Below, piece by piece: positions 7,873 through 54,524 of a stretch of 64,000 nt of DNA. Each line of letters begins with the position of its first letter. Within the stretch, counting starts at the first letter, position 1. Origin of the DNA: Bacillus niameyensis (GTDB taxonomy: Bacteria > Bacillota > Bacilli > Bacillales > Bacillaceae_C); contig NZ_LN831197.1 in the NCBI RefSeq assembly GCF_001375535.1, forward strand, positions 4,444,410-4,508,409, read 5' to 3'. The position numbers and the translations under genes were made by a program. The notes beneath the pieces were generated by a model. The model did not search any database and was not told the DNA's origin. It worked only from the letters and a program-made list of their open reading frames with translations.

Positions 7873-8068
7873 AGCGCAAGCGCATAGCTCATCGACGTAC
7901 AAACTTCCTAAGAAGGATGAACGGCTAAAGACGCGCCGTCCTGGCGCAACGCCGTTCTGACCAACGTCCTGTTGGCCCGAGATAAAGGAAACACGGCGAG
8001 GAACGAGCCGATGTTGACTTATCGTAGGAAGAAGCGCAGAAGTTTGCTAGTCGATATGCGCAGAAGCT
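7873..8068 (+). repeat. Dispersed repeat family A, copy 1 (in the mgtE leader)
   Basis: This 196-bp GC-richer segment has imperfect inverted ends (GCGCAAGCGCAT..ATCGACGTACAAACTTC at the left; GAAGTTTGCTAGTCGAT..ATGCGC at the right). A second copy lies inverted at 48097-48235. The two agree almost base for base over the outer segments, for example GAGATAAAGGAAACACGGCG and CCGATGTTGACTTATCGTAG. Copy 1 carries about 57 extra bases in the middle. It lies between the M-box terminator and mgtE, so it is transcribed in the leader. It has the look of a non-coding MITE-like or hairpin repeat. Confidence 0.8.
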
Positions 8069-48007: not shown

Positions 48008-48377
48008 TTTTATCCCGCATTAACTGGCTGTAAGACCCCCACTTCAAGAATTCGAGGAGTCCAAGAATTGTAAGTGGGGGATCAACAGCCATATCTAGCT
48101 TAAGCGCATATCGACTAGCAAACTTCTACGCTTCTTCCTACGATAAGTCAACATCGGCTCATTCTTCGCCGTGTTTCCTTTATCTCGTCAGAAGCTAGGA
48201 AGTTTGTACGTCGATGAACAATGCGCTTGCGCCTTAAAGAGTAAAAGCCCGATTGGTTCGGGCCCGCAGGACGCGGGTCACAAAGGCGTTGCAACAGGAT
48301 GTTGCGAATTTAGCCTTTGTTCCTCTAACAATCAGTGGGGATGAAAAAAACCCCCACTGATTGAAGTTTCACTTTAT
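48008..48377. repeat. Composite repeat: family B arms enclosing a family A copy
   Basis: The left arm (48008-48042) reads TTTATCCCGCATTAACTGGC then TGTAAGACCCCCAC. The right arm (48351-48377) reads CCCCCACTGATTGAAGTTTC then ACTTTAT. Joined, they equal the 54-bp compact copy at 29697-29750 inverted. Between them are two hairpins (ACCCCCACTT/AAGTGGGGG at the left; AATCAGTGGGG/CCCCCACTGATT at 48331-48363), a family A copy (48097-48235), and a GC-rich piece with GCAACAGGATGTTGC that recalls the extra middle of copy 1 of family A. Confidence 0.75.
48097..48235 (-). repeat. Dispersed repeat family A, copy 2
   Basis: A 139-bp inverted counterpart of 7873-8068, nearly identical over its outer 55 and 75 bp but without the central 57 bp. 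Confidence 0.8.
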
Positions 48378-48425: not shown

Positions 48426-48467
48426 AAATCCGACCTTATTCCAAAGAGGGAATGGCGGATTTTTTTC
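48426..48467 (+). terminator. Intrinsic terminator before the Ntn-hydrolase cassette
   Basis: AAATCC..ATTCC pairs with GGAAT..GGATTT, followed by TTTTTTC. It separates the cassette from upstream transcription. Confidence 0.75.
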
Positions 48468-48602: not shown

Positions 48603-49859
48603 ATGACGGCGGAAATAGTAGTAATGAACACAAAAGGAATTGCTCTCGCAACTGATAGTGCAGTAACTATTGCGGGCAGAAAGGTATATAATTCAGCAAA
48701 TAAATTGTTTGAGCTTTCCAAACATAACCCAGTGGGAGTCATGTTCTATGAATCAGTTTCCCTTTTAAATGTTCCGTGGGAAACGCTTATAAAAATATAT
48801 AGAAATAAATTGGATGATCATCAGTTTGATACGTTAAATGAATATGTGGAAGCTTTTTTACACTTTCTGAATGAAAATGAATATAAGGAATTTATGTCGA
48901 AAAGCAATGAAGAAAACTTTATCAGAAATTCCTTGCAATTAAACGTTTCGGGAATACATAGCGATTTATCGGATTTAAGTATGACGTTATACAGTGAGTA
49001 TGGGGAACTAAATCTGCAAAACGATATACAAGAATTATATATCCACCACGGATGGAATTATCTAAGAGATAGAATTCAAAGTTTAGAAGAGAAAAAATAC
49101 ATAGATGTTTTTAATAATAGTGACTTTAATCTATTAATTGAAAAGTATGGAGCAGAAGTGGAAGAACTGATTCATAAACAATTTGAGAATCATTTACTTA
49201 TAGAAGAATGGACAGAAGAAATAAAGTATATTGTTATTCAAGCCTTATTAAAGGATTTTCCCAATAATTATTATTCGGGAATTGTGTTTGCTGGTTTTGG
49301 CAGTAAGGAAATATATCCATCTGTGATCACACTTAAAGTTGATGGGAAAATAAATGGGAAAATCAAATATAGTATTATGCCGCATCAAACTAAAAGTATT
49401 AGCAATTCACTTGGAGCAAGCATCATACCACTTGCGCAAAGAGATATGGTTGAGAATTTTTTAACGGGAATACATATTGAAATGCAGGAGTTTGTTTTTG
49501 CTGGTCTAGAAAGAGAATTTGAGGGATTATCCCATACATTAACTGAAAAATTAAAGGATTCATTTAAAGAAGAAACTAATTTGGAAACAATCGAAGACAG
49601 CATAACAGATGAGTTATTGGAGGTATACCGCAGGTTTAATCGAGCACTGTACCATTATAAAAGAAAAAACTTTATAGATCCGATTGTAGATATTGTGGAA
49701 GCATTGCCAGTTGAGGAGTTAGCAGAAATGGCCGAAGCTTTGTTAAGTATTACTTCTTTAAAAAGAAAAATGTCGATATCACTAGAGACTGTCGGCGGTC
49801 CGATTGATGTTGCTCTTATTACAAAAGGCGATGGTTTTACGTGGGTTAAGAGAAAATAA
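48603..49859 (+). CDS. Proteasome-like Ntn hydrolase with helical insert
   Basis: The 418-residue protein starts MTAEIVVMNTKGIALATDSA. After Met removal the N-terminal Thr becomes residue 1, Asp (in ATDSAVT) residue 17 and Lys (in SANKLFEL) residue 33, exactly the Thr1-Asp17-Lys33 set of proteasome beta subunits and HslV. GIVFAGFGSKEIYPSVITL (about 219-237) matches the later strand pair of that fold. Residues about 75-205 are a charged helical insertion absent from HslV. It has no signal peptide. The predicted role is an N-terminal-threonine peptidase. AAGGAGGGATATA precedes the ATG. It is first of a three-gene set with the PRTase-HAD and DprA-like genes. Function is inferred from motifs only. 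Confidence 0.7.
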   Translation: MTAEIVVMNTKGIALATDSAVTIAGRKVYNSANKLFELSKHNPVGVMFYESVSLLNVPWETLIKIYRNKLDDHQFDTLNEYVEAFLHFLNENEYKEFMSKSNEENFIRNSLQLNVSGIHSDLSDLSMTLYSEYGELNLQNDIQELYIHHGWNYLRDRIQSLEEKKYIDVFNNSDFNLLIEKYGAEVEELIHKQFENHLLIEEWTEEIKYIVIQALLKDFPNNYYSGIVFAGFGSKEIYPSVITLKVDGKINGKIKYSIMPHQTKSISNSLGASIIPLAQRDMVENFLTGIHIEMQEFVFAGLEREFEGLSHTLTEKLKDSFKEETNLETIEDSITDELLEVYRRFNRALYHYKRKNFIDPIVDIVEALPVEELAEMAEALLSITSLKRKMSISLETVGGPIDVALITKGDGFTWVKRK

Positions 49860-49945
49860 AGTTGAGTAAAGACTACTTTTCTAGAAACGTTTTCGGGTAA
49901 TAAGATATAGTAAAATAGTTGGATGTTTATTAAGGAGATGATTAC

Positions 49946-51661
49946 TTGTTTACATATTGCCACTCAGATTTTAATATATTCTTAGATTTAACTGGTCCAG
50001 ATGGCTGGCAGGAGAATCGTGATTTTTTAGAGAAAATGAAACAATTATCAAAAAAGAAAAGTGTTACATACGCGAGTGAAGCTTTGATAGAAGATACAGA
50101 ATCTCGAATGTATCCATTTAACCCTGAAGGTTTACCAACAGATATCGGATGGATCGTGTATGAAGATTTGGATACGGATGAAACAGGAGTATTAATTATT
50201 TCAAATAATATAGACCATATGAAACATTATGTGGAGTACGGATTTAGCACCGTTTATTTACAAACGGAAAACTGTCAATTAGATTTTGATACTACGGTAA
50301 TGCCAGATGAAGTTTGGGATTATGACAACTTTAATAGTTTCGCCGATCATCCGAATCTACGGTTCACCTATTCAAGTGAGCTATTAGGCTTTCCGAATAA
50401 GGCTGAGTTAAAGTCTAAATTATTTAAGCTTTCTAATAAGCTGCGCATTCCCAATACCGATTGGGAAGCCGATATTATTTTTACCGGACGATATTTTACA
50501 TCAAAAGACAATCGACATTATCACCATCCATTATCAAGGGCCATTTTGGGATTTAAAAAAGATAGATTTAATCAGCGAGACGTAGTTAAGAAAGTACTTG
50601 GCAAAACAATAGGTGAGTATTTGAATAGTGACGATACTGTTACTCATATTGCCATTGTGCCACCAAGGCCTAATAAAGAAAGTCGATTTATTGGGATGGA
50701 AGAATTTATGGACGCAGATATAAAAGTGGAACATGATTTATTGGAGTCTGTTAATGATTATGACTCTCCTGGAAAATACCCAACATTCAACGAAAAGTAT
50801 CAACATGTTTATGATAATATCAAATGTACGAAAAAAATATCAGGACATGTGTTATTAGTGGATGATGTTTTTACAAGTGGAGCAACGACAGCTGAATGCG
50901 CCAGGGTATTATATAAAGAGGGGGCTAGTAAGGTAACCATTTTACCATTAGCGTTTACACAGCACTTTAACTACTATGAACAATCTGTCATGCCCGTCAT
51001 TTTTAATTCAGACGGAAATGAATATCATTTACGTTTTCGAAATAGTGACCACCAAGTATTTTGGTCAAGTAAGAAGGATAATGGAGAATTTGATTCTAAG
51101 AATTTTGAGATTATCAATCAAGAGTACGTAGATTATCATGGACATTGGTCCGCAAAGAAGGTAGAGGTTCAGGAATATAGCGCAGACAAAGAAATACAGG
51201 CTATTATTTTTGATCTAGATAATACCCTACTTCAAACAGACCACTTAGAGAGTTATCGCTTGCAAAGAACGGCTATTAAAGATACTAGCCTTATTAAAAA
51301 AGAACATATAATTATACAACCTGATATACTAGCAGAATTACAACGGGCAAATATTAAAGTTGGAATTGTGACTAGATCACCGAGAAATTACGCTAAATCA
51401 TTGTTAGCAGCCTATGGCTATACATATGATTGCCTCATAGCATCGTTAGATACTTTAAGAAGTAAACCAGCTCCAGATCCATTGTTAAAATGTGCGATAA
51501 AGCTAAAGATAAAACCGGAATACATAGTGAATATAGGCGATCAGAAAACAGATTTGCAAGCGGGAAATAAGGCTGGAATGATGAGTTTGCATATAGATAC
51601 AGTATTGGATGATAATGTATTGATACGGACCCTTAATAGATACGCACCATTAGAATTTTAG
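49946..51661 (+). CDS. Phosphoribosyltransferase-HAD hydrolase fusion
   Basis: The 571-residue protein joins three parts. Residues 1-150 form an unassigned N-terminal region. Residues about 170-400 are a type I PRTase domain with the PRPP loop HVLLVDDVFTSGATT (301-315). Residues 415-571 are a HAD hydrolase with motif I AIIFDLDNTLLQTD (419-432), motif II VTRSPRN, Lys507 in RSKPAPDPLLK and motif IV NIGDQKTDLQAG. All catalytic residues of both enzymes are present. It may make or break a ribonucleotide and remove phosphate, for example in nucleotide salvage or signal turnover. The TTG start at 49946 follows AAGGAGATGATTAC. It lies 86 bp after the Ntn gene and 14 bp before the DprA-like gene. Confidence 0.8.
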   Translation: MFTYCHSDFNIFLDLTGPDGWQENRDFLEKMKQLSKKKSVTYASEALIEDTESRMYPFNPEGLPTDIGWIVYEDLDTDETGVLIISNNIDHMKHYVEYGFSTVYLQTENCQLDFDTTVMPDEVWDYDNFNSFADHPNLRFTYSSELLGFPNKAELKSKLFKLSNKLRIPNTDWEADIIFTGRYFTSKDNRHYHHPLSRAILGFKKDRFNQRDVVKKVLGKTIGEYLNSDDTVTHIAIVPPRPNKESRFIGMEEFMDADIKVEHDLLESVNDYDSPGKYPTFNEKYQHVYDNIKCTKKISGHVLLVDDVFTSGATTAECARVLYKEGASKVTILPLAFTQHFNYYEQSVMPVIFNSDGNEYHLRFRNSDHQVFWSSKKDNGEFDSKNFEIINQEYVDYHGHWSAKKVEVQEYSADKEIQAIIFDLDNTLLQTDHLESYRLQRTAIKDTSLIKKEHIIIQPDILAELQRANIKVGIVTRSPRNYAKSLLAAYGYTYDCLIASLDTLRSKPAPDPLLKCAIKLKIKPEYIVNIGDQKTDLQAGNKAGMMSLHIDTVLDDNVLIRTLNRYAPLEF

Positions 51662-51675
51662 TAGGAGTGAACTAA

Positions 51676-52668
51676 TTGAATGATTTCTTCTGGACCACAC
51701 TCAGTTGTATTAAAGGTGTAGGCAGTAAAACGTTAATTCAACTATATGGAAATAATCCACACCTAAATTTTGATAATCTTGATGAACTCTTAGAATTGAT
51801 GAAGCAAAAAAGTGTAAGCCAATTGTTATCAATGGAAAATATGAAGCTTGCTAAAGAAAAAGCTGAACATTTAATTAAAGTACACGAAGAAAAAGGCATT
51901 AAAGTCATTCCGATTTCAAGTGAGTGGTATCCTACATATTTACGGTTAATTGCAGACCCGCCAACCCTCTTATATGCAAAAGGAAATATAGATCTGCTGA
52001 AAGAAAAACATACTTTGGCTATCGTTGGAACAAGAGAACCGACTGAAATGGGGATTAAAGCTGCCCGTAAAATTGCCGCAACTTTTGCTGGAATGGGATA
52101 TACGATCGTCAGCGGTTTGGCATTAGGAATCGATACAGCTGGTCATGAAGGAGCATTAATGATAGAAAACGGAAAAACAATAACCGTTTTAGCAGGGAGC
52201 CTGACAGAAATTTATCCAGCCAAAAATAAAGAACTGGCAATGGAAATTTTGGAGCGGGATGGATTATGGCTCTCAGAAACTCCGATCGGCCAAGCAAATA
52301 CACGGGGTAATTTCGTGAAGAGAGACCGGATTCAAAGTGGTTTATCTTTAGGCGTTTGCCCCGTGCAAACACCTTTAAAAAGCGGAACTCAACATACAAT
52401 CGAGTTCACACGAAAACAAAATAGATTTTTATTTACACCGATTCCTTTAAAACAAGATGAACATGAAAATGCGATTCAGGGAAATATGGAATTAATAAAA
52501 AACGGTGTTACTGTATTAAAAAACAAAGAATCGTATCAATCAATTCATGAAACATTACTAGATTATGAATTAAGACTCAATACTGAACATAAAGAGCGAT
52601 TCGAAAAAAAGATTGATTTAAAGCGTGATTCAGATGAAACGATTGAACAGTTAAATTTATTTGATTAA
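51676..52668 (+). CDS. DprA/Smf-like protein with C-terminal clamp-binding-like motif
   Basis: The 330-residue protein has an N-terminal helix-hairpin-helix-like region (CIKGVGSKTLIQLYG, 11-25) and a DprA Rossmann domain (about 95-265). The latter shows AIVGTREPTEMG, IVSGLALGIDTAGHEGAL, GKTITVLAGSLTEIYPAKN, LSETPIG, FVKRDRIQSGLS and SGTQHTIEF. The usual RNRI is RDRI. In place of a C-terminal winged helix there is a charged tail ending EQLNLFD, close to the beta-clamp-binding consensus QL[SD]LF. The housekeeping DprA gene normally lies beside topA, so this is a second, specialised member of the family. TAGGAGTGAACTAA precedes the TTG start. It is the last gene of the cassette. Confidence 0.82.
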   Translation: MNDFFWTTLSCIKGVGSKTLIQLYGNNPHLNFDNLDELLELMKQKSVSQLLSMENMKLAKEKAEHLIKVHEEKGIKVIPISSEWYPTYLRLIADPPTLLYAKGNIDLLKEKHTLAIVGTREPTEMGIKAARKIAATFAGMGYTIVSGLALGIDTAGHEGALMIENGKTITVLAGSLTEIYPAKNKELAMEILERDGLWLSETPIGQANTRGNFVKRDRIQSGLSLGVCPVQTPLKSGTQHTIEFTRKQNRFLFTPIPLKQDEHENAIQGNMELIKNGVTVLKNKESYQSIHETLLDYELRLNTEHKERFEKKIDLKRDSDETIEQLNLFD

Positions 52669-52703: not shown

Positions 52704-52722
52704 AAAAGCATAAATTAAATAG

Positions 52723-52819
52723 TTATCAAGAGTGGCTGAGAGAACTGGCTCAACGACGTCACAGCAACCTGCTCCGGCAAGGTGCTCCGACCAGCAAAGC
52801 AATTTGCTTTGGATGATAA
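52723..52819 (+). promoter_or_regulatory. S-box (SAM-I) riboswitch
   Basis: The sequence reads TTATCAAGAGTGGCTGAGAG, AACTGGCTCAACGACGTCAC, AGCAACCTGC, then a variable stem, AAGGTGCT, GACCAGC, and GGATGATAA closing P1. All core S-box elements (AUCAAGAG, CUGGC..., CAGCAACC, AAGGUGCU) are present. It should bind S-adenosylmethionine and turn off the gene at 52923. Confidence 0.9.
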
Positions 52820-52830
52820 AATCGGAATGG

Positions 52831-52868
52831 AAATCCCTTTTGCGTTCAATGGCAAGAGGGATTTTTTA
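52831..52868 (+). terminator. S-box-controlled terminator
   Basis: AAATCCCTTTTGC pairs with GCAAGAGGGATTT, followed by TTTATTT. Confidence 0.88.
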
Positions 52869-52922
52869 TTTGGAGTCGTGTGTTCTTTCAGGTTATTTGA
52901 TAGCTAAACAAAGGAGAGTACA

Positions 52923-53267
52923 ATGATGAATGTGACTGGATTTACGCGCGGTCTAATGGCTAAAAATTTTAACGAAGAGGAATTTTTCACACAAGTAGCT
53001 AGCTTAGTAGAAAGCCAGCTGCAGGAATGGGATGAGCAGTATGAAGTGAAGGTGATAATGAAAGGGAGCATGTATAAACTTTTCGTTAACCATCATAATT
53101 TGTTTTATCATCTTGTTCTTTCGAAAAATGATGTTCAATCTCTTCAAGAAAAAGGCCCGTTTGCCCTTGATCGAAAAATTTGGCAGAAGTTAGCGGAACA
53201 AGGATTGCCGATAATAAAAGGAACAGGGAATTATTTAGATATTTTGTTTTACAGGAATAGGAATTGA
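52923..53267 (+). CDS. S-box-regulated protein of unknown function (114 aa)
   Basis: The 114-residue soluble protein starts MMNVTGFTRGLMAKNF and contains VKVIMKGSMYKLFVNHHNL and GTGNYLDILFYRN. I do not recognise a family. It lies directly after an S-box riboswitch and terminator, with AAAGGAGAGTACA before the ATG and no other gene in the unit before 53350. Expression is therefore predicted to rise when S-adenosylmethionine is low, which suggests a role in methionine or sulfur metabolism or uptake. The hydrophobicity does not suggest a transporter. The start may be the second ATG at 52926. Confidence 0.7.
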   Translation: MMNVTGFTRGLMAKNFNEEEFFTQVASLVESQLQEWDEQYEVKVIMKGSMYKLFVNHHNLFYHLVLSKNDVQSLQEKGPFALDRKIWQKLAEQGLPIIKGTGNYLDILFYRNRN

Positions 53268-53952: not shown

Positions 53953-54027
53953 ATCGTGGGAAATTCAGTAAGTCTGCTAGAGTCGAAGATTTAAATGCGC
54001 GAAACTAAGCATATTGGAGGTCATTGT

Positions 54028-54524
54028 ATGCAGCAAAATATAATAGTTAGTGAAGCAAATGAAAAAGAGCATCTTTTAGATGTATTAAGGATGAGGAAGA
54101 GGTTGGAAAAGCATATTGCTAATTCCGTACCTAACTATGTGCAAGAAGATGAAAATAAATTCCTACAAGGCTTGAAATCCTATTTTAATGATCCAAATGC
54201 CAAAATACATATTGCTTCTCTGCCAAATACAAATGAGTCATTGGTATGGGCATTAGTATGCTTGAACACCATGATGACCCTAAAATAAAGATTGCAGGAA
54301 ACATACACTATCTATGGGTAGAACCTGAACATCGGAAAAATAATATTGGGAAAACCATTGTTGCGCGGATCATTCAGTTTTTCAAAGAAAATGGGGTTAA
54401 TGATCTTTTTTTAGATTATAATTTTGGAAATATAGAAGCGGAGAAATTTTGGGGAAGATTAGGTTATACACCTGGTATCATTGTCGCTAGGAATTCCATT
54501 AAAAATATCGAGAAGAAGTTATAG
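54028..54524 (+). pseudogene. Frameshifted GNAT acetyltransferase
   Basis: The first frame (ATG 54028 after TTGGAGG) reads MQQNIIVSEANEKEHLLDVL to about NTNESLVW at 54246. The frame then shifts to GISMLEHHDDPKIKIAGNIH, with the acetyl-CoA-binding block VEPEHRKNNIGKTIVARIIQ and the end AEKFWGRLGYTPG. Joined they make a normal-length acetyltransferase (about 165 residues). A one-base change near 54246-54250 breaks it, unless it is a sequencing error. Confidence 0.75.

Follow-up and report, generated by a model that had tools for sequence, protein, structure and literature searches.

The closest described counterparts of two of the genes examined here are pairs of a phosphoribosyltransferase (PRTase) and a DprA-like protein. 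In the accessible part of PMC9122126, a pair of DprA and PRTase is reported to confer protection from T7 and lambda, the antitoxins of shosTA, syrTA and rqlHI are named as DprA homologs, and the sensing of phage DNA by the DprA-like protein is put forward as a suggestion. In the portion of PMC4670107 that covers RqlHI, the genotoxicity of RqlH depends on its PRTase, and the DprA-like RqlI binds RqlH and counters it. The phage single-stranded DNA-binding protein (SSB) Gp32 activates ShosTA, among other systems, according to an excerpt of PMC10732053. We analyzed a 64,000-nucleotide stretch of Bacillus niameyensis DNA (contig NZ_LN831197.1, positions 4,444,410 to 4,508,409; the window) that carries three co-directional genes on the + strand, separated by gaps of 86 and 14 bp, as an earlier reading of this DNA, the original prediction, had described. 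They encode a proteasome-like hydrolase (gene 1), a PRTase fused to a HAD domain (gene 2) and a DprA-like protein (gene 3). The original prediction joined all three in one anti-phage or conflict cassette. We consider it likely that they are instead two unrelated accessory modules lying side by side, a PRTase-DprA defense pair (49946-52668) and a proteasome-like protease (48603-49859).

A PRTase-HAD gene followed by a DprA-like gene

What can be observed directly at genes 2 and 3 is their gene content, motifs, adjacency and clade membership. Gene 2 (49946-51661, + strand, TTG start) encodes 571 residues and is the predicted toxin of a ShosTA/PsyrTA-type pair. Pfam returned HAD_2 at E=1.4e-18 and a PRTase domain at E=0.018, below its cut-off, and matched no helicase family. 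The protein nevertheless carries VLLVDDVFTSGATTAE, which reads as an intact phosphoribosyl pyrophosphate (PRPP) motif and whose core, DD..TSG.T, is invariant between gene 2 and its two closest relatives. The PRTase-HAD fusion of the original prediction is thereby confirmed. Gene 2 matched the PADLOC models PsyrT (1.1e-9) and ShosT (1.9e-8), with the PsyrT model matching over profile positions 446-686 only, the C-terminal part of PsyrT. With the HAD motifs read by eye, the protein divides into a degenerate HAD-like region (residues ~1-170), the PRTase (~174-345, containing VLLVDDVFTSGATTAE) and a HAD phosphatase that has its motifs (~413-555). The extra ~170 N-terminal residues can be aligned to the relatives' HAD domain and lack the DxD motif, so that the architecture reads, from the alignment, as (degenerate HAD)-PRTase-HAD.

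Gene 3 (51676-52668, + strand, TTG start, 330 residues) follows after 14 bp and is DprA-like, as originally proposed, with matches to DNA_processg_A in Pfam (E=6.6e-58) and to ShosA in PADLOC (251 bits). It is of the ShosA type and would be the antitoxin and sensor of gene 2. On the DprA equivalog model it scored 188.3 bits, below the cut-off of 191.15, compared with 239 bits for the housekeeping DprA of the same genome and 193, just above the cut-off, for its relative in Priestia. A DprA above this cut-off was found in all 26 order-level genomes, the host's own housekeeping copy among them; gene 3 is an extra copy below it, and such copies occurred in three of the 26, own genome included. In a tree of 52 DprA sequences, which took in 23 of 26 housekeeping loci, 19 of 24 viral loci and one of two other second copies, gene 3 fell within a 28-member clade (support 0.97) that contained none of the 23 housekeeping DprAs. 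By its position in this tree, gene 3 is grouped with mobile DprAs and is distinct from housekeeping DprA.

We then compared the neighborhoods of related genes. The closest relative is an adjacent pair on a Priestia megaterium plasmid, with 52% (gene 2) and 72% (gene 3) identity, where the PRTase-HAD gene again precedes the DprA gene. Gene 2 matched 43 phage and plasmid records (7 phage, 36 plasmid), and in five of the six that were opened a DprA was annotated beside the match. The order is DprA then HAD-PRTase in Sinorhizobium and Bradyrhizobium and DprA then PRTase in phage phiOH2, and on an E. coli plasmid DprA is followed by one HAD-PRTase-helicase protein. A Deinococcus plasmid (4232-5650) encodes a HAD phosphatase with a DprA-like stretch, read by eye, fused behind it. 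PRTase also adjoins DprA in three further genomes of the window's phylum. Altogether, in nine of the ten loci examined with the gene 2 query, the PRTase/HAD either adjoined a DprA gene or shared one protein with a DprA domain. The remaining locus, from a genome that also contributed one of the nine, is a HAD fragment where its contig ends. No match came from searching viral contigs with gene 2 alone. Starting from 80 viral DprA loci and using in-house profiles, we found within 3.5 kb a PRTase in 37, a PRTase and a HAD in 9, a HAD in 3 and neither in 31; the 49/80 with either or both have no baseline, as the background rate was not measured. Among the 24 closest of these loci the figure was 18.

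Two further observations concern these relatives. Near the Priestia plasmid pair lie genes for an HNH endonuclease, Hsp70, a HEAT-repeat protein and an MBL-fold protein, with a restriction endonuclease ~14 kb off. The Deinococcus fusion sits 3' of a DEAD/DEAH helicase gene and a hypothetical gene.

Like ShosTA in the accessible account (PMC9122126), genes 2 and 3 place a DprA-like protein beside a PRTase with a PRPP motif, lack a helicase and have relatives in phages and plasmids. They differ from it in that the window PRTase has a C-terminal HAD domain and a degenerate N-terminal HAD-like part, and in that the ShosT match is weak. PsyrTA/RqlHI, in the available text of PMC4670107 a RecQ-PRTase with a DprA-like partner, share with the window a PRTase adjoining a DprA-family protein; the RecQ helicase joined to the PRTase is theirs, and gene 2 lacks it. 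The E. coli plasmid relative, with HAD, PRTase and helicase in a single protein, recalls PsyrTA/RqlHI.

Several results count against a ShosTA/PsyrTA-type assignment. The gene 2 PRTase matches the ShosT and PsyrT models weakly, at 32-35 bits. With the PADLOC ShosA model, a partial sequence of the housekeeping DprA reaches 216 bits, and the best solved-structure match of gene 3, ShosA 9vzo (3.4e-56), is level with 8zva (4.1e-56), an entry named DprA, so neither search separates ShosA-type from housekeeping DprA. The 31 viral DprA loci with neither PRTase nor HAD nearby point the same way. Alternatively, genes 2 and 3 could have a part in DNA uptake, in repair or in the salvage of nucleotides: according to the accessible part of PMC5512222, competence involves DprA and ComF-type PRTases, and the gene 2 PRTase matches the ComF model weakly, at 30 bits against a cut-off of 234. 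However, the genome already has a housekeeping DprA, and relatives of gene 2 lie on plasmids and in phages. Gene 2 is also rare, found in 2/299 genomes of the order (E<=1e-20) and 3/398 of the phylum (1e-12), own genome counted in both, and we regard such a role as improbable.

We therefore retain the defense pair as the preferred reading: genes 2 and 3 look like a mobile toxin-antitoxin or defense pair of the ShosTA/PsyrTA type, with toxicity and protection as predictions from sequence. From the studied relatives we infer toxicity, restraint and trigger as follows. The DprA-like gene 3 product would bind and restrain the PRTase of gene 2, and DNA intermediates of an invading replicon (single-stranded DNA, or SSB bound to it) would alter this binding. 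Once free, the PRTase would modify a base or nucleotide at the expense of PRPP, leading to growth stop or DNA damage through which the infection would abort. The HAD domain of gene 2 would probably act on the phosphorylated product or keep the activity in check. For defense biology, the locus would extend the ShosTA/PsyrTA group by a HAD-PRTase-HAD variant, and it suggests that a HAD phosphatase recurs in that group, one being present at 12 of the 80 viral DprA loci.

The proteasome-like hydrolase and its small downstream neighbor

Gene 1 (48603-49859, + strand, ATG start) encodes 418 residues and is matched from end to end by PHROG_5990 (E=1.2e-106), a family of unknown function. Pfam gave no match above curated cut-offs, and NCBIfam and PADLOC gave no match. 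Among 42 aligned sequences of the family, T2, D18 and K34 are invariant and have the spacing of proteasome Thr1/Asp17/Lys33. By these catalytic residues gene 1 is proteasome-beta-like, and the threonine-type N-terminal nucleophile (Ntn) hydrolase of the original prediction stands. Less favorable to a proteasome fold, a profile alignment of the family to proteasome beta and HslV together was weak (probability 60, E=8.8e-5) and fell to probabilities of 12 and 6 when each was aligned separately; the fold thus rests on the catalytic triad and this weak alignment. A PDB sequence search reached proteasome beta at E ~0.08. Cullin matches over the helical insert of gene 1 in the same search (best E 6e-4) were set aside as probably chance helix similarity.

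Relatives of gene 1 span bacteria, archaea and phages. They were detected in 444 of 469 pattern-matched genome stretches, of which the best 80 were kept, in 13/50,697 phage records and 10/72,556 plasmid records, at 58 viral loci, and in 15 of 397 order-level genomes, the host's among them. Judged by spread and size rather than by sequence comparison, the family is most likely the uncharacterized PMI-4 described by Fuchs in 2021 (PMC8665760). PMI-4 shares with gene 1 the Thr1/Asp17/Lys33 residues, the spread across bacteria, archaea and phages and a length well above that of a bare beta subunit; the window copy differs in lacking a C-terminal tail. In length, gene 1 would have room for the helical insertions that PMI-4 has after H1/H2 and between H3/H4. 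For PMI-4, genomic context suggested no function in that survey.

In contrast to that survey, we found that the gene 1 family usually has a small co-directional open reading frame (ORF) downstream, a feature new for these proteins. We scored 134 loci, not counting the window copy, that had 250 bp or more after gene 1. In 125 of them an ORF of 44-81 residues started within 60 bp of the gene 1 stop, and in 86 it overlapped the stop. Twelve loci with less than 250 bp after the stop, or with no stop, were put aside. By source, the ORF was found in 75/79 genome loci, 46/49 viral loci and 4/6 phage and plasmid loci. As a control, 241 of 865 mechanical ORFs of at least 250 residues in the same loci were followed by such a small ORF (28%; Fisher p=1e-33 for the genome loci against this control, the gene 1 loci being not fully independent of each other). 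This control rate is high, so that single cases prove little, and the argument for a partner rests on the excess over the control together with cross-validated homology and the tail described below. In five-fold cross-validation of 110 distinct small proteins against a background of 12,882 ORFs across all 134 loci, held-out partners and other ORFs were recovered at 46 versus 2 (E<=1e-3), 65 versus 4 (0.1), 75 versus 14 (1) and 84 versus 66 (10). A common protein family is thus established for about half of the partners, the rest being too divergent to tell. Six of the small proteins were compared with Pfam and seven with PHROGs, and every match was weak. None of the titles listed in literature searches on proteasome homologs described such a partner, and these searches were not aimed at the small protein itself.

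The enzymes that have the partner also carry a C-terminal extension. The end motif was recognizable in 118 of the 125 partnered enzymes, all 118 of which continue into a tail of 9-37 residues; a HYF-like start occurred in 108 of the 125. The simplest reading of these sequences is that the small protein, of ~60 residues, docks on the tail of what would be a threonine protease. It must be set against this that six of the nine loci lacking the small ORF keep the tail (L006, L008, L033, L110, L113 and L158), so that the link between tail and partner is not strict. In L033 an ORF begins 104 bp downstream, beyond the 60-bp limit. For the study of protein degradation, the family gains a testable handle in the adjacent small protein and the tail.

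Gene 1 of the window ends ...WVKRK, without a tail, and the 86-bp gap that follows (49860-49945) holds no small-partner ORF. With five tree neighbors it forms a Bacillaceae clade of six (support 1.0, stem branch 0.95), whose members end without a tail or with a few extra residues at most; the small ORF was found in none of them. The frameshifted L019, which is 55% identical to gene 1 and was excluded from the alignment and tree, has no downstream ORF of 44 or more residues. As both tail and partner are gone in this clade, gene 1 would act alone or with other proteins. Gene 1 might instead be a decaying copy without activity. Consistent with decay are the missing tail and partner, the long stem branch and a Glu at position 50, the predicted oxyanion-glycine position as placed by the proteasome profile alignment; Glu occurs there in this sequence only (1/42), Gly in 34/42. 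However, N, D or Q occupies position 50 in 7/42 sequences as well, the frame is open over its full length and Thr2, Asp18 and Lys34 are kept, which makes decay the less probable course, though one that carries some weight.

As a more speculative proposal, which we hold only tentatively, gene 1 relatives and the ~60-residue protein could form an unrecognized, self-contained two-gene protease module with a role in mobile-element conflict, passed among bacteria and archaea as well as phages and their satellites. The small protein would then be a docking inhibitor, adaptor or antitoxin, and the window's clade would have shed partner and tail and come to lie beside, or under the control of, the PRTase-DprA pair.

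Several other observations were made around gene 1 relatives. A second copy in the same genome (2192527-2193759; 36% identity) overlaps a downstream membrane-protein gene, and by eye similar membrane proteins follow the relatives in L179 and L185. A ~355-residue protein recurs near L017, L019, L185 and L186, of which L186, like L010, represents the second copy. On a Mesorhizobium plasmid (L008, 2733-7437), a single case, a gene 1 relative lies near a multiubiquitin-domain gene and a ThiF-family gene on the other strand.

Linkage of the three genes

Neither gene 2 nor gene 3 was present in any of the 147 other gene 1 loci, within the stretch examined; in the 146 whose flanks were measured, at least 3 kb was available on one side in 142 and on both sides in 84. 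Conversely, gene 1 was absent within 3.5 kb from all 80 viral DprA loci and from the nine PRTase/HAD and DprA loci examined, two of which are only ~3.5 kb long. The three families were thus found adjacent nowhere else in the stretches seen, an outcome that the original prediction had itself named as refuting it, and gene 1 has a different usual neighbor of its own. On these counts we rejected the trio as a conserved three-gene system with the Ntn hydrolase as effector; the anti-phage or conflict reading fits genes 2 and 3, which resemble ShosTA, PsyrTA and RqlHI, and is not supported with gene 1 as a member.

The neighborhoods of gene 1 relatives were also examined for signs of a defense island. 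Taking the nearest neighbor of 110-700 residues on each side in genome loci, no Pfam family occurred in more than three of 139 neighbors scanned (140 selected), and the 25 families listed were largely metabolic or transport. With PADLOC at 1e-10, each of the 25 families listed had one member, restriction-modification and PD-T4-6 being among them, a result for which no background rate was measured. Among neighbor families of at least 80 residues, gene 1 aside, none exceeded 13 loci, and those 13 were viral contigs. A defense-island location of gene 1 was accordingly not supported by either scan.

A true three-gene system confined to this lineage, in which the tail-less protease was co-opted as an additional effector or regulator, for instance by degrading the DprA antitoxin, has to be weighed separately. 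Gene 1 is co-directional with genes 2 and 3 at a distance of 86 bp, so that local co-transcription is possible, which tells against two independent modules. The three may represent a recent local association in this genome. A terminator-like hairpin with a T run lies on the + strand 5' of gene 1 (~48426-48462; fold -14.3 kcal/mol, z=-3.1 against shuffles), in agreement with the terminator of its own that the original prediction had placed before the cassette. A simple consensus terminator scan, which did not list this hairpin, listed no + strand terminator between genes 1 and 2. The usual partner of gene 1 is missing, and all three genes are below the window in G+C (32.8%, 34.9% and 35.5% against 38.4%). 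However, beyond the absence of the trio from every other locus seen, the Priestia plasmid pair lacks gene 1, and sister copies of gene 1 without genes 2 or 3 also lack tail and partner. We consider such a lineage-specific system very unlikely and continue to favor two adjacent modules. A weak promoter-like match (9/12) lies inside the gap at 49882-49911, where such matches are about as frequent in shuffles.

Surroundings of the locus

A same-genus synteny comparison for an empty site matched nothing beyond single flanking genes. Directly 3' of gene 3 is an S-adenosylmethionine (SAM; S-box) riboswitch at 52720-52822 (71 bits), which a mechanical ORF at 52732-52926 overlaps. The next downstream ORF, 52923-53267, had no match in Pfam. 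At 53995-54524 there is a GNAT acetyltransferase that is apparently split across two overlapping frames, with a Pfam match in the second half only. The window also contains two copies of the Bacillaceae-1 RNA (RF01690), one just 5' of the three genes at 48263-48329 on the - strand and the other at 7909-7975 on the + strand.

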